A DNA stretch of 45,923 bases, from the NCBI GenBank assembly GCA_029561455.1, contig JAKQIY010000077.1, positions 1-45,923 on the forward strand. Direction: 5' to 3'. The DNA comes from a bacterium (lineage in GTDB: Bacteria > Zhuqueibacterota > Zhuqueibacteria > Residuimicrobiales > Krinioviventaceae). Positions within the stretch are counted from its first letter, which is position 1. Each line of letters begins with the position of its first letter. Below, in pieces: positions 15,303-32,638 of this stretch. The translations under genes were made by a program, and so were the position numbers. The notes beneath the pieces were generated by a model. The model was not told the origin of the DNA. It searched no databases and saw nothing but the letters and a program-made list of their open reading frames with translations.

Positions 15303-16407
15303 TTACTCGTCACCTTTGGTTTGCATGAGGAATGCCTGAATAAAAGCGTCAATATCGCCATCCATCACGGCCGCGGTGTTGCTGGTTTCGTGGTCGGTGC
15401 GGTGGTCTTTGACCATGTTATAGGGATGAAACACATAGGAACGGATCTGGCTGCCCCAGCCGATATCCTGTTTTTTATTTTCCAGTTTGGCCAGTTTTTC
15501 CTTGTCTTCTTCCAGTTTTTTCTGATAGAGTTTGGAAAGCAGCATTTTCATGGCCGAATCTTTATTGCGATGCTGCGAGCGTTCGTTCTGGCATTGCACC
15601 ACAATCCCGGTGGGAATGTGGGTGATGCGAATAGCGGAACTGGTTTTGTTGACGTGTTGGCCGCCGGCGCCGCTGGCGCGATAGGTGTCGATGCGTAGGT
15701 CTTTTTCATCCACGTCGATCTCGGCGGTATTATCCACTTCAGGGTAGACAAACACTGAAGCGAACGAGGTATGGCGGCGGCTGTTGGCGTCGAACGGTGA
15801 AATGCGCACCAGGCGGTGCACGCCGGTTTCCGCTTTTAAATAGCCGTAAGCGTATTCGCCAACGACTTCGATGGAAACGCTTTTCACCCCGGCTTCATCG
15901 CCGGCCTGAAAATCGAGAACATCATATTTATAGCCCTGCCGCTCGAACCAGCGCGTGTACATACGCATCAGCATTTGCGCCCAGTCCTGCGATTCCGTGC
16001 CGCCGGCGCCGGGGTGGATGGTAACAATGGCATTTTTGGCGTCTTCGGGTTGACCCAGCATTTTACGGAATTCCAGTGCGTCGATGGCTTTTTCCAGGGT
16101 TTGCGCGTCCTTTTCCAGGTCTTTGAGCATCCCGGCGTCTTTTTCGTCTTCGGCCAGCAGAATTAATTCTTCCAGGTCGGTACAGCTTTTGTTGATCTTT
16201 TGCCAGCTATCCACCCAGCTTTTGCGCTCGCTGATCTCGCGCATTACCTGTTGGGCGGCTTCATTATCGTTCCAAAAGCCGGGAACCTGGGTTTTTTCCT
16301 GCAGGGCGTTTATTTCGCTTTGTTTAATATCGATGTCAAAGGAACCTCCGCAAAGCTTCGGTTCTCTTTTTATATTCGCGCAGGTTATATTTTAAATCTT
16401 CTATCAT
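15303..16407 (-). CDS. prfB: peptide chain release factor 2, with programmed +1 frameshift
   Basis: Release factor for UGA and UAA codons. The gene is read in two frames. The first runs from the ATG at 16407 for 23 codons (MIEDLKYNLREYKKRTEALR...) to an in-frame TGA at 16336-16338; shifting +1 at CTT-TGA-C opens the long frame ending at 15303, for about 367 residues, the usual RF2 length. The shift site has the classic parts: a Shine-Dalgarno-like GGAGG just upstream and CTTTGAC. The main frame carries the SPF tripeptide (ISPFDANS) that reads UGA/UAA and the catalytic GGQ (SGAGGQHVN). A good promoter lies at 16454-16482. Annotators that ignore the shift will start it inside, near 16244. Confidence 0.96.
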
Positions 16408-16482: not shown

Positions 16483-16569
16483 GGAATGAAAAAGCCAATT
16501 CTGTCATTCCGACGAGGGCAGTGAGGAGGAATCTTGTGCGCATAAAATGGCTGGGATGGGCACAGCCAT

Positions 16570-16756
16570 GGGGCTGTATCAAAAGGGATAGTACGGGAAA
16601 GTGTCGTACACCTGCGAATGTTTTTCGCTATAAATTTTTAATCTACATATTAGAATATGGCATTATTTTTATGGAATTTGCGAAAAGGCGTACTATACTT
16701 TCCCGGTACTTGTTTCCTGGAAAACTAGAACAATAAAGACCTTTTGATATAGCCCC
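16570..16756. repeat. MITE-like element with terminal inverted repeats (GGGGCTGTATCAAAAGG)
   Basis: The ends GGGGCTGTATCAAAAGG (16570-16586) and CCTTTTGATATAGCCCC (16740-16756) are inverted with one mismatch. A second inner pair (around 16589-16609 and 16690-16710, sharing GGGAAAGT/ACTTTCCC) would extend the hairpin. The same terminal sequence occurs at 32311-32326 and 32506-32521 and near 31189-31204. Confidence 0.7.
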
Positions 16757-16865
16757 TTTATTTTGCGTCCTGTGGTAAAACACCACCAAAGGCGGATCTT
16801 GGACCCGGGACGAAAATAGATTTTTACTATTATATTACTTAGTAGAAATTAAAAGATACTTAAAT

Positions 16866-17045
16866 CTAAGCACGTGTAAAAGTAATAGGTTCATCATTAT
16901 TAATTTGTTCATAATATTCTTTAATATAATTTATTTCTTCAGACATCAATTGAACATCTTTTATTCCCTTCATGACAACATCATCCTTGCTTCTATAATC
17001 CTCTATTTTTTTAAAAATCAATTCGAAGTTATATTTTGATTCCAT
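16866..17045 (-). CDS. small hypothetical protein (59 residues) coupled to the Clp-fold protease gene
   Basis: ATG at 17045, stop TAG ending at 16866. The ribosome binding site (AGAGGA) overlaps the protease stop codon, and the gap is 8 bp, so the pair is translationally coupled. The product begins MESKYNFELIFKKIEDYR and is charged and helical (IKDVQLMSEEINYIKEYYEQ); no cysteines, no signal peptide, no family I recognise. Its composition is as AT-rich as the protease gene's. Existence rests on coupling and composition; function is unknown. Confidence 0.6.
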   Translation of the reverse strand: MESKYNFELIFKKIEDYRSKDDVVMKGIKDVQLMSEEINYIKEYYEQINNDEPITFTRA

Positions 17046-17053
17046 ATTTTCCT

Positions 17054-18229
17054 CTACTTTACTATTTTTTTCCCTGATTGTGATTCAATTTGCATTCTTA
17101 ATTCTAAAATATTATTTTCAGAACCACAATAAGGACATTTAAAAACATTATTTTCAACAGGATAAGGAAAAAAATTTGGCCTTGTCATGTGACTTTTCTC
17201 AAGATTCGCTTGAATTAAAGATTCTTTCTTACAATTAGGACATTTAAAATGAATTTCAACTATTTCATTGTTTTGTTTTATTGGTTCTTTAATTTTTGTA
17301 TCATCTTTTTGACTTATTGCAAATTTATAAATTTGTGATTCAATTGTTTCATAAATCTTTACCATATTTGATACTTCAAAACTCATTCTCATCAATGTAT
17401 AATACTTCATAATTGCATCATTTAATTCTTTATTTTTACTATAATCATAAATTTGTAATTTTAATTCCTCAAAATCATCTATTTTTATTGACCTGCTATG
17501 TGTTAACCATTTTGATTGTTTACATAGTTCATTTGCTATTTCTTTTGCTCTTTTTTCTTTTTCCTCTTTTGTGACAACTTTCTTGGATGACTTATGGGTA
17601 TCCCAAAATTTAAATTTATAATTTGATAACCAATCTGTAACTAATTTTTGTGAAAAGTTCTGTGCATTTTCACAATGTTGAATTTCACCAGGTGAAATAT
17701 TTTGTAATATTGGAATGTATGCTGGATTTAATTTCCCAGTTTTTTCGATTTCCTTTTTAATTTTTTCCAAGCCCTCTAAAAAAGCTTCTGCTGAATATTT
17801 TTTGTTATTTGATAATATTATTTGGGCGTCTATTGGTCCTAATCCAGATGTCGGGCCCATTAATATCTCATCTCCTGCTAAAGCAAAAATTGTACCAGCA
17901 CTTTTTGCCCATCCTGGTATTATTATACCGACTTTATCATATTTTTTTCGTACTAATTTTACTAAATCCTCGACAACTTCAGCATAACCACCAGGAGTTT
18001 CTAATATTATATCAATGCTTTCTCCATTTAAATTTGATAGTTGATCTTGAAATGGTAGTATATCAGAATAATCAATAGAATTAAAAATGTTTTTTGTAAG
18101 ATCACTAGCAAAAACTAATATGTCTCTATTATTTCTTAATTTTGAAATAGTTTGTAATTGTTTTTTTCTCTCTTTATTAAGATCGTCAAAAGATAAATTT
18201 TTATTTAAAAAATCAGAATAAAAACCCAT
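17054..18229 (-). CDS. Clp-fold serine protease (SDH/SppA-like) with C-terminal zinc ribbon
   Basis: 391 residues. The crotonase-like Clp fold is shown by IDIILETPGGYAEVVEDLV (about 72-90) and by GWAKSAGTIFALAGDEILMG (106-125), where S110 in the SAG motif is the expected nucleophile, followed by SGLGPIDAQ, the S49/SDH substrate strip. A conserved-looking WLTHSRSI (H244) lies beyond. The C-terminus has two CxxC pairs (C330/C333 and C365/C368), a zinc ribbon. There is no signal peptide, so it is likely cytosolic, unlike exported SppA relatives. Codon use is strikingly AT-rich (AAA, AAT and ATT dominate) compared with the GC-balanced genes on both sides, a sign of recent acquisition. The role is unknown; 'serine dehydrogenase proteinase' is only a family label. 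See findings. Confidence 0.75.
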   Translation of the reverse strand: MGFYSDFLNKNLSFDDLNKERKKQLQTISKLRNNRDILVFASDLTKNIFNSIDYSDILPFQDQLSNLNGESIDIILETPGGYAEVVEDLVKLVRKKYDKVGIIIPGWAKSAGTIFALAGDEILMGPTSGLGPIDAQIILSNNKKYSAEAFLEGLEKIKKEIEKTGKLNPAYIPILQNISPGEIQHCENAQNFSQKLVTDWLSNYKFKFWDTHKSSKKVVTKEEKEKRAKEIANELCKQSKWLTHSRSIKIDDFEELKLQIYDYSKNKELNDAIMKYYTLMRMSFEVSNMVKIYETIESQIYKFAISQKDDTKIKEPIKQNNEIVEIHFKCPNCKKESLIQANLEKSHMTRPNFFPYPVENNVFKCPYCGSENNILELRMQIESQSGKKIVK

Positions 18230-18482: not shown

Positions 18483-18695
18483 TTATTCCTTCCAGGACAT
18501 TGATGGTTTGAGTTCCTTATCTGCGCAAACCCGTAAATAAAGGTTGATAAGCTTTTGATATGGAATATCAATATCGTCGGCGATCTTTTTAAAATATTCT
18601 ATTGTCTCTTTTTCCAGGCGAATTGTAATTTGTTGTTTCAGTCTTTTCACATAGGGATTGGCGGCAGACCTGGGAAAATCATATTCTTTTCGCAT
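18483..18695 (-). CDS. brnA: BrnA-like antitoxin
   Basis: 70 residues. The pattern 'EYDF...NPYVKRLKQQITIRLEKETIEYFKKIADDIDIPYQKLINLYLR' is that of BrnA/ribbon-helix-helix antitoxins that bind BrnT-type RNase toxins and repress their own operon. It starts 1 bp after the upstream brnT-like gene, the usual toxin-first order for BrnTA. The frame looks intact. Confidence 0.8.
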   Translation of the reverse strand: MRKEYDFPRSAANPYVKRLKQQITIRLEKETIEYFKKIADDIDIPYQKLINLYLRVCADKELKPSMSWKE

Positions 18696-18696
18696 A

Positions 18697-18924
18697 TTAT
18701 TTACCTTTATAATATTTTGCAGATTCCCTGTTTACAACTTTACGCGCAGAAATAATTCTGATCAAGTCGTCATCCTCCCAATAGCTATGGACAACCACCA
18801 AAAGGCGGAGTTTAAAACTCATGCCTAATAGAATATAGCGATCTTCCTGTCTGGAATGATCGGGATCATGAATAATGCGCGCTGCTTCATCATAAAACAC
18901 CGTTTTCGTTTCGGCAAAAGACAT
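18697..18924 (-). CDS. brnT: BrnT-like toxin, N-terminus lost by frameshift (probably inactive)
   Basis: 75 residues matching the BrnT family from 'MSFAETKTVFYDEAARIIHDPDHS' through 'LLVVVHSYWEDDDLIRIISARKV'. BrnT proteins are about 90 residues and begin '(M)xFxWDxxKxxxNxxKHG'. That beginning is present just upstream but in another frame: SFKWNEIKNLANQ is encoded at 18974-18936, and the NKHD that should follow lies in the downstream frame. Between the W codon and the K-H codons there are 29 bases where 30 would be in frame. The expected start codon position reads ATA (18975-18977). The internal ATG at 18924 lacks a ribosome binding site. Confidence 0.7.
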   Translation of the reverse strand: MSFAETKTVFYDEAARIIHDPDHSRQEDRYILLGMSFKLRLLVVVHSYWEDDDLIRIISARKVVNRESAKYYKGK

Positions 18925-19038
18925 GTCATGTTTGTTTGATTAGCGAGATTTTTGATTTCATTCCATTTAAAGGATATTTTTTCATATTTACAATATAATT
19001 ATTTTTCAAGGGGTTTTCTTGTTTCACATTGTATAATC

Positions 19039-19192: not shown

Positions 19193-20584
19193 TTACATCT
19201 CCCGATCTTTAATCGCCAGCAGGTATGCAAACGCCGCGTCATGGTCGTTGGGGATTTCGCCGTTCAGAATGGCTTCCTCGATGGCTTTTTTCAGCTTGCC
19301 GACCTGCGGGCCGGGCTGCAAATTCAAAGTCTTCATGATCTCGTCCCCCTTTACCGGCGGCTGGAATTCGCGCAGACGATCTTTTTCTTCTACTTCCTTC
19401 ATCCGTTCTACCACCCGGTCGAAATTATGCAGATGCTCTTGCACCCGGCCGGGATTTGCTGATGTAATATCCGCCCGGCAAAACAACAGCAGGTCGTCCG
19501 CTTCCGGGCCTGCTTCGAACAACAGCCGGCGAATAGCGGAATCGGTCACTTCCTCCTCGGCCAGGTGGATAGGCCGCAGGTGCAGGCGCACCAGTTTTTC
19601 AACATATTTCAGCATATCGTTGGGCAGTTTCAGTCTTTTAAAAATCTCGGGCAGCATGCGCGCACCCAGGTCTTCGTGGCCGTGAAACGTCCAGCCCAGT
19701 TTGGAATTATATTGTTTGGTAGCCGGTTTGGCAATATCGTGAAACAGCGCCACCAGCCGCAGGCGCAGGTCGTCCGAAACCCTGGCGACATTATCGATGA
19801 CCTTGATGGTATGATCAAACACATCTTTGTGGCTGTGCTTGCCGATTTGCTCAACCCCTTTGAGGGCAGCGATTTCCGGTAAAATGACCTGCAGAATACC
19901 GGTTTCGAACATAATTTTAAAACCAATAGACGGTTTGGTGCAGGCGAGGATCTTGATCAATTCATCGGTGATACGTTCCTGGGAGATGATGCGCAGCCGG
20001 TCTTTTTCAGTTTTCAGACCCTCCAGCGTGAGCGGATCGATCTTGAAATGTAACTGACTGGCAAACCGCACCGCCCGCATGATACGCAGGGGATCGTCGT
20101 AAAAGGTGTGCGCCGGTTCCAGGGGAGTGCGGATCAGTTTATGCTTTATATCCTGGCGACCGTTGTAGGGGTCGATAACCTCGCCGGGAGAATCCTGGTT
20201 CAGGGATATGGCAATGGCGTTAATGGTAAAATCGCGGCGGGAAATATCGGTCAACAGATCGGCGCTTTCCACCTCGGGTTTACGCGATGATTCCCGGTAA
20301 CTCTCTTTTCGGGCGCCGACAAATTCCAGCACCTGGTCATCATATTTCAGCATGGCCGTGCCGAACTTTTTATAAATGGTATAATTGGTAATCTTTAATG
20401 TTTTAGCCAGTTTGGCGGCAAAACGGGGGCCGTTGCCTACTACCACAAAATCGATATCTTTGGATTGTTTTCCCAGTAGCAGATCGCGCACATAACCGCC
20501 GACGGCATAGACCTGCACATCATTTTCCCGCGCTACTACGCCAATGGTCGTAAAAAGATGATTGTCGAACAGTATTTTTTCCAT
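19193..20584 (-). CDS. cca: CCA-adding/poly(A) polymerase-type nucleotidyltransferase with HD domain
   Basis: 463 residues. The class II nucleotidyltransferase head has G29-G30 in VGGYVRD, the metal-binding D43 and D45 in KDIDFVVV, the RRDFTINA motif (116-123), and the ERhxxE-like PLRIMRAVRFA (165-175). An HD phosphohydrolase domain follows with H282-D283 in ALFHDIAKP. This head-plus-HD order fits tRNA CCA-end addition and repair; poly(A) polymerase or a split A-adding enzyme cannot be excluded from sequence alone. No second copy is in the window. Confidence 0.88.
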   Translation of the reverse strand: MEKILFDNHLFTTIGVVARENDVQVYAVGGYVRDLLLGKQSKDIDFVVVGNGPRFAAKLAKTLKITNYTIYKKFGTAMLKYDDQVLEFVGARKESYRESSRKPEVESADLLTDISRRDFTINAIAISLNQDSPGEVIDPYNGRQDIKHKLIRTPLEPAHTFYDDPLRIMRAVRFASQLHFKIDPLTLEGLKTEKDRLRIISQERITDELIKILACTKPSIGFKIMFETGILQVILPEIAALKGVEQIGKHSHKDVFDHTIKVIDNVARVSDDLRLRLVALFHDIAKPATKQYNSKLGWTFHGHEDLGARMLPEIFKRLKLPNDMLKYVEKLVRLHLRPIHLAEEEVTDSAIRRLLFEAGPEADDLLLFCRADITSANPGRVQEHLHNFDRVVERMKEVEEKDRLREFQPPVKGDEIMKTLNLQPGPQVGKLKKAIEEAILNGEIPNDHDAAFAYLLAIKDREM

Positions 20585-30932: not shown

Positions 30933-31228
30933 GAACTATTTATGTATGTCGGGCCTGTGGCCCGGCAATTTAAAATTTATGCAGGACAGCATGTCCTGCC
31001 TTATTTTGCGACCTGGGGTTCAACCCCGGGACGAGCTTGAAAAAATCCATTCTTGTCATTCCGAGGAGCGAAGCGACGAGGAATCTTTCCTTGCTAACGT
31101 ATTGAAAAACAAGATTTTTCGCTTTGCTCGAAATGACAATTTGATCGAATATGCTTTTATTTATAAATCACTTCATCTTAAATCTGGATTTTTGATACAG
31201 CCCCGATCATTAAATACAGGAGTTTTCT
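30933..31228. repeat. composite repeat left of the secreted protein gene
   Basis: In order: hairpin GTCGGGCCTGTGGCCCGGC (30948-30966), palindrome GCAGGACAGCATGTCCTGC (about 30979-30997), GACCTGGGGTTCAACCCC hairpin (about 31010-31030), 'GTCATTCCGAGGAGCGAAGC', and TTTTTGATACAGCCCC (31189-31204). The same modules, partly inverted, lie at 32275-32563 on the other side of the gene. Confidence 0.75.
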
Positions 31229-32197: not shown

Positions 32198-32638
32198 GAT
32201 GATATTTCCCTTTGGCTTTCTGGTCGTCGAATGGGCCCGCACTGCGAGACGTGCGCTAAAGCAAAAGTTAGTAGGTCGGGCCTGTGGCCCGGCAGTTTTA
32301 AAATTTATGAGGCTGTATCAAAAGCCTCAATTTATAAAAGGTCATTCAAAATACAATGCATAAATAACAAACTTGTCATTTCGAGCGAAGCGAGAAATCT
32401 TGTTTTTTACAATATGTCAAAGACGTAAGATTCCTCGTCGCTTCGCTCCTCGGAATGACAAGAATGGCTTTTTTTCTTATTCTTGTAACTTATTTTTATT
32501 TTTGGGGCTTTTGATACAGCCCCCTTATTATGCGTCCTGGGGTTCAACCCCAGGACGAGCTTGAAATAGAAAAGCTACTCTTAAAGAAGCAGCGCTCCGA
32601 AAGAAAAAGTAAAATTATTATAAAACAAGGAGTCCGTT
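32198..32638. repeat. composite repeat right of the secreted protein gene
   Basis: Contains hairpin GTCGGGCCTGTGGCCCGGC (32275-32293), the element bounded by GGCTGTATCAAAAGCC (32311-32326) and GGCTTTTGATACAGCC (32506-32521; perfect 16-bp inverted repeat), inside it 'GTCATTTCGAGCGAAGCGAG' and 'TTCGCTCCTCGGAATGAC', and then the TCCTGGGGTTCAACCCCAGGA hairpin (about 32530-32550). No gene is seen. An AAGGAG site for the next gene is at 32627-32632. Confidence 0.8.

Follow-up and report, generated by a model that had tools for sequence, protein, structure and literature searches.

A mobile, mainly prophage-borne cassette encoding a ClpP-fold protease and a small partner protein, a possible phage exclusion module

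Related proteases, partners and exclusion systems

The SDH-type ClpP-like proteinases (PF01972, NF047768) share their core fold, the TPGG motif, the SAG serine, and the GPIDxQ and HxR motifs with the protease described in this study, which is encoded in the window, the whole stretch of 45,923 nucleotides of bacterial DNA that was analyzed. The window protease differs from these proteinases in carrying an additional C-terminal ribbon and a dedicated partner, in its mobility, in belonging to a separate clade, and in scoring under the NF047768 cut-off. The phage family PHROG 11747, to which no function is assigned, matched residues 17-299 of the protease (E 5e-54) and ended before the ribbon. Several SDH-type proteinases of the same fold are also present in giant viruses (Hyperionvirus, Klosneuvirus, and others; BFVD).

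In B. subtilis, SppA is inhibited by SppI, a product of the sppA operon, and the 25 C-terminal residues of SppI take part in this inhibition (PMC7568657). SppA has a fold related to that of the window protease and likewise has an operon partner, and the involvement of the C-terminal part of this partner is a candidate likeness. However, SppA and SppI are membrane proteins, whereas the window pair appears soluble by sequence and the partners of its family comprise 53-75 aa. Two prophage systems are also comparable. The rexAB genes of lambda and its relatives occupy a lysogen-expressed slot directly behind cI; they adjoin cI, are transcribed from PRM, and also influence the CI/Cro switch (PMC11077077). 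A pair homologous to that of the window occupies exactly this slot in E. coli. RexAB consists of the DNA-binding RexA and the membrane protein RexB, whereas the pair described here consists of a protease and a small soluble protein; in the window, it lacks the RexAB make-up, comprising an SDH protease and a charged small ORF without a Pfam match. The Lit protease of prophage e14 is a prophage-encoded latent protease that serves phage exclusion, but it belongs to the zinc metalloproteases and has an EF-Tu-bound phage peptide as its activator, and a co-encoded small regulator is not mentioned in the account of it (PMC3014915).

No description of the protease and partner pair was found in the open-licence literature on SDH/ClpP-like proteases in phage exclusion, and the PADLOC 2023 profiles matched neither protein up to E 1, which ruled out a known defence family. 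The original remark that no described system with this pair was known is supported as far as PADLOC is concerned.

The two-gene unit and its products

Both predicted ORFs were present in the window (Table 1). The protease stop codon TAG is followed by the 8 nt AGGAAAAT and then by the partner ATG, with AGGA as the ribosome binding site; because the gap is this short, the Shine-Dalgarno sequence overlaps the protease stop region, in agreement with the predicted tight coupling. The GC content of the unit was 26.1%, versus 49.1% in the 5-kb flanks and 46.8% in the whole window, and a value as low occurred in just 4 of the 446 sliding windows with the length of the unit. The unit is thus far more AT-rich than its neighbors, as originally proposed.

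The unit lies between prfB and cca. An empty-site comparison revealed that cca and prfB are located on different contigs in a sister species (G001), and since the unit stands at this synteny break, its insertion is not datable. No flanking direct repeats of at least 11 nt were found around the unit. In the sister species, two genes encoding 227 and 1248 aa lie beyond cca (L075, 8346-12860), neither of which is beside cca in the window; by eye, the 1248-aa product resembles a large ATPase.

The repeat element and the toxin-antitoxin remnant that had been predicted beside the unit were both found. The dispersed, MITE-like repeat occurs in nine copies in the genome (71-100% identity). Upstream of the unit, the BrnA ORF is open, and the BrnT toxin gene is apparently broken: its ORF starts at profile residue 15, and the absent N-terminal codons are found by eye upstream in another frame. 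A REP-like short sequence around ATTCTGTCATTCCGACGAGGG recurs in the genome as approximately 30 additional partial copies, two of which are in the window. This setting had been read as that of acquired accessory or defence genes. An acquired accessory cassette is supported, but the defence setting at the window itself is weak, consisting of just the broken BrnT/BrnA pair and the dispersed repeat. The window copy stands alone in the chromosome, outside any recognizable prophage, and may be domesticated or stranded.

Table 1. Positions of the unit, its landmarks, and neighboring features in the window
Feature	Position	Strand	Remark
Protease gene	17054..18229	(-)	391 aa; cytosolic ClpP/SppA-fold (SDH-type) serine protease
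S110 codon, nucleophile position (KSAG)	17900..17902	(-)	Ser in 44/45 SDH relatives
D134 codon, GPIDxQ motif	17828..17830	(-)	In 45/45 relatives; putative role
H244 codon, candidate catalytic histidine	17498..17500	(-)	In 45/45 relatives; putative role
C-terminal ribbon C330xxC333...C365xxC368	17126..17242	(-)	
Spacer AGGAAAAT	17046..17053	(-)	8 nt; Shine-Dalgarno of small gene
Partner gene	16866..17045	(-)	59 aa; equivalent or homologous ORF at all 20 ribbon-type loci
Partner C-terminal tail ITFTRA	16869..16886	(-)	Family-conserved feature
prfB	15303-16244		Flanking gene
cca	19193-20584		Flanking gene
BrnA	18483-18695		Upstream of unit; ORF open
BrnT toxin gene, apparently broken	18697-18985		Upstream of unit; N-terminally broken ORF 18697-18924
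Dispersed MITE-like repeat	16560-16770		Adjoins unit; 17-nt inverted ends 16570-16586 / 16740-16756
REP-like sequence around ATTCTGTCATTCCGACGAGGG	16489-16536		Further partial copies at 31038-31087 and 32427-32473

The predicted Clp-type fold of the protease was borne out by profile and structure comparisons. The protein matched the Pfam family SDH_protease PF01972 (61.3 bits vs gathering 31.3, E 1e-16) and missed both the equivalog cut-off of NCBIfam NF047768 Clp_like_SDH (73.7 vs 250 bits) and the gathering score of CLP_protease PF00574 (15.7 vs 20.2 bits). Its AlphaFold2 model (mean pLDDT 88.8) aligned with ClpP and PH1510 at Z about 13 via structure comparison, and the close structural matches included PH1510 3viv, the K138A mutant with a substrate peptide. 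TPGG is present at residues 78-81, and S110, within KSAG, falls in the alignment column of PH1510 S97 (S97A mutant structure 6m4b). Judging from the conserved residues, S110, D134, and H244 may form the catalytic set, and we infer both catalysis and the oligomeric state of the enzyme. By eye, no signal peptide was seen at the protease start (MGFYSDFLNK...), as predicted, and the cassette contains no AAA+ unfoldase gene. The predicted C-terminal ribbon, which may bind nucleic acid as originally suggested, is also present. All four of its cysteines are retained in 18 of the 19 ribbon-type rows of the alignment, the nineteenth (L002) being a row that stops short of the ribbon, and they are missing from the other SDH rows; Pfam zinc-ribbon matches to this region were below cut-off.

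The small gene had been proposed to accompany the protease, and a search beside homologous proteases revealed that it does so throughout the ribbon type. A partner ORF of 53-75 aa was found on the same strand, -4 to +52 nt downstream of the protease, at 20 of 20 distinct ribbon-type loci, and another genome from the order of the window (G021) encodes a 41%-identical homologue of the 59-aa protein at the equivalent place. Both findings show that the small gene is genuine. In the pairs for which it was computable, dN/dS of the ribbon-type partners was 0.11-0.38, indicating purifying selection. The partners share a layout of a helix with [FY]xxxF..[IVL]E, a second helix, and a tail, in which the body is variable and the tail conserved: the C-terminal residue is A, S, G, or T in 16 of 20 ribbon-type partners (background 17%), and 18 of 20 carry an aromatic residue (F or Y) between positions -6 and -2; the binomial p-values calculated for these features take no account of relatedness among the sequences. 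The partner of L030, the least certain member of the family, has no tail. No match to the partner was found in Pfam, NCBIfam, PADLOC, or PHROG.

Distribution, genomic settings, and the lambda rex slot

The 20 ribbon-type loci represent at least four phyla and are mostly prophages; their sources are the window genome, G021, Bacteroidota and Aminicenantes MAGs, a Leptospira interrogans plasmid, and many IMG/VR contigs. The type is rare and patchy: it is present in 2 of the 82 genomes from the window's phylum, in 1 of 395 Bacteroidia, and in 1 of 247 genomes from the phylum to which G084 belongs. A tree was built of 45 proteins, including 19 of the ribbon type and 10 of a ribbon-less phage type with partner ORFs of 56-79 aa; a branch with 100/99 support placed both of these types on one side and the partner-less SDH type on the other. 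A long, uncertain row (L050) fell on the partner-bearing side, and the support for the ribbon type as a single group was just 78/59. Of 11 partner-less chromosomal SDH loci (MPNW type), just one (L065) had an ORF that reached 50 aa and lay no more than 60 nt away (51 aa). Stable housekeeping contexts, the setting that would have spoken against the original interpretation, were not what the ribbon-type proteases displayed; they are mobile and mainly carried by prophages, which had not been foreseen. Overall, the underlying observation was confirmed, and its earlier interpretation was partly supported.

The cassette was more AT-rich than its surroundings at 14 of 15 loci. It immediately follows a CI/S24 repressor in both L031 and L025, and likewise in E. 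coli, and adjoins genes for tail or other structural proteins in L012, L018, and L024; in L030, a 196-aa gene with a regulator-like look and no database match lies upstream. A head-maturation protease was rejected as an identity because PHROG matches to such families were weak and there was no consistent portal-capsid placement. Known defence genes occurred nearby at 3 of 18 loci, a raw neighbor count: a type II R-M pair adjoins the cassette in L024, a DrmMI-type methyltransferase lies near it in L026, and PD-Lambda-1 lies one gene upstream in L032. Most phage copies have no known defence gene alongside. In L032 (5740-9376), PD-Lambda-1, a 269-aa protein of no known kind, the ribbon protease, and the partner are all co-oriented, and this four-gene run is possibly one defence operon.

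Among 5,426 complete E. coli genomes, 17 encode a ribbon-less homologue with a 56-aa partner. In L015, the pair is preceded by sequence with 94% identity to the end of cI in a rexAB prophage (L090) and followed by 121 bp with 90% identity to the stretch downstream of rexB; the pair therefore stands exactly in the rexA-rexB place. In lambdoid E. coli prophages (L015, L079), it has replaced rexAB precisely between cI and the rexB terminator, a position that the window copy, outside a prophage, does not share. In another prophage type (L078), the pair again lies behind a LexA-type repressor. The small gene is retained without the protease in two E. coli strains, one of which is JNEC-KY176; in its prophage (L080, 4014-4184), the 56-aa partner gene stands behind the repressor and the protease is absent. 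An IS cuts the protease start in one E. coli strain and leaves the small gene intact. Retention of the small gene alone is represented by few events, two or three in number. The protease without the small gene was seen in none of the E. coli strains. A motif comparable with the tail is internal, not C-terminal, in the ribbon-less partners, and hhalign detected no homology between them and the ribbon-type partners, and a single partner family was rejected accordingly. The rex-slot evidence consequently reaches the window through the protease only.

Proposed mechanism and alternatives

Our preferred reading, which we advance tentatively as having nearly as much for it as against it, is that the pair is a mobile, mainly prophage-borne cassette of a protease and an obligatory small regulator that acts as a lysogen-expressed exclusion module with a tail-restrained protease. 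The lysogen would express both genes, which in several phages stand directly behind a CI-like repressor; the repressor-adjacent position suggests such expression, as for rexAB (PMC11077077). The small protein would bind the protease and place its short C-terminal tail in or at the active-site groove in the manner of a product, and would thereby silence the enzyme. If a second phage infects the cell, or if the labile partner is lost, the protease might be freed; it would then cut host or phage proteins and abort the infection. The placement of the tail in the groove is proposed from the SppI precedent, from PH1510 with its substrate peptide, and from B. subtilis SppA 4kwb, whose C-termini are bound in the active sites and which was the best Foldseek match of a fused model of L024. 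In this AlphaFold2 model of an in-frame protease-partner fusion, with stops read through, the partner was mostly below pLDDT 60 and was given no docking placement. In favour of the reading are the constant pairing, the well-supported split between partner-bearing and partner-less proteases, the purifying selection on the partner with its conserved tail, the positions behind repressors and in the rex slot, the defence genes near three loci, the AT-richness of the cassette, and the retention of the small gene alone; Lit, moreover, is a precedent for a latent protease of a prophage that acts in exclusion. Against it stand the low-confidence partner model, the lack of homology detected between the two sets of partners, the internal motif of the ribbon-less ones, the small number of retention events, the many phage copies with no known defence gene alongside, and the location of the window copy outside a prophage.

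We favour an inhibitor as the candidate role of the partner over a substrate or an adaptor. As a substrate, the small protein would be cleaved close to its conserved tail, so that a peptide or the protein itself is released or activated in maturation or signalling. A parallel is the PH1510 protease, to which a peptide from its stomatin partner binds, with 3viv among the close structural matches; aromatic-x-x-small tails resemble ends recognized by proteases; and in the ribbon-less partners the motif lies within the chain. However, the conserved residues of the ribbon family form the very C-terminus, leaving little to release, and two E. coli prophages retain the small gene without its protease, and we regard a substrate role as unlikely. 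An adaptor would dock by its C-terminal tail and deliver a host or phage target to the protease, which accords with the constant pairing and with a conserved tail (a common dock) on a variable body (variable recognition). Nevertheless, this body is short, mostly two predicted helices without a recognizable binding domain, and the ribbon could perform the recognition instead, so that this role appears quite unlikely.

The pair could also serve phage regulation rather than defence, for example, by influencing lysogeny through cleavage of a repressor or antirepressor. CI-like repressors adjoin it in several phages, and it replaces rexAB, which itself acts on the CI/Cro decision (PMC11077077), but many copies lie far from any repressor, among tail genes, on the Leptospira plasmid, or, in the window, in a bacterial chromosome; we consider regulation improbable. 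That the protease is an ordinary chromosomal SDH protein-quality enzyme with a fortuitous small neighbor accords with its Pfam family, which is the same, yet is disfavoured given the distribution and pairing. The patchy occurrence in its own phylum and in Bacteroidia, the separate clade, the mobile contexts, and the score far under the NCBIfam SDH cut-off all argue against it, and it has very little probability in our judgment.

Returning to the exclusion module, the occurrences across phyla may belong to one hitherto undescribed prophage exclusion family, in which a soluble ClpP-fold protease is silenced through the C-terminal tail of a small protein and which displaced RexAB in some lambdoid phages; we offer this wider reading as a possibility, with some reserve. 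If true, the known means of prophage exclusion would come to include a protease-based module under the control of a partner, PHROG 11747 would gain a function, and the lambda rex slot would be home to two kinds of two-gene system. Because the pair is present in E. coli, the question is directly testable in laboratory strains.
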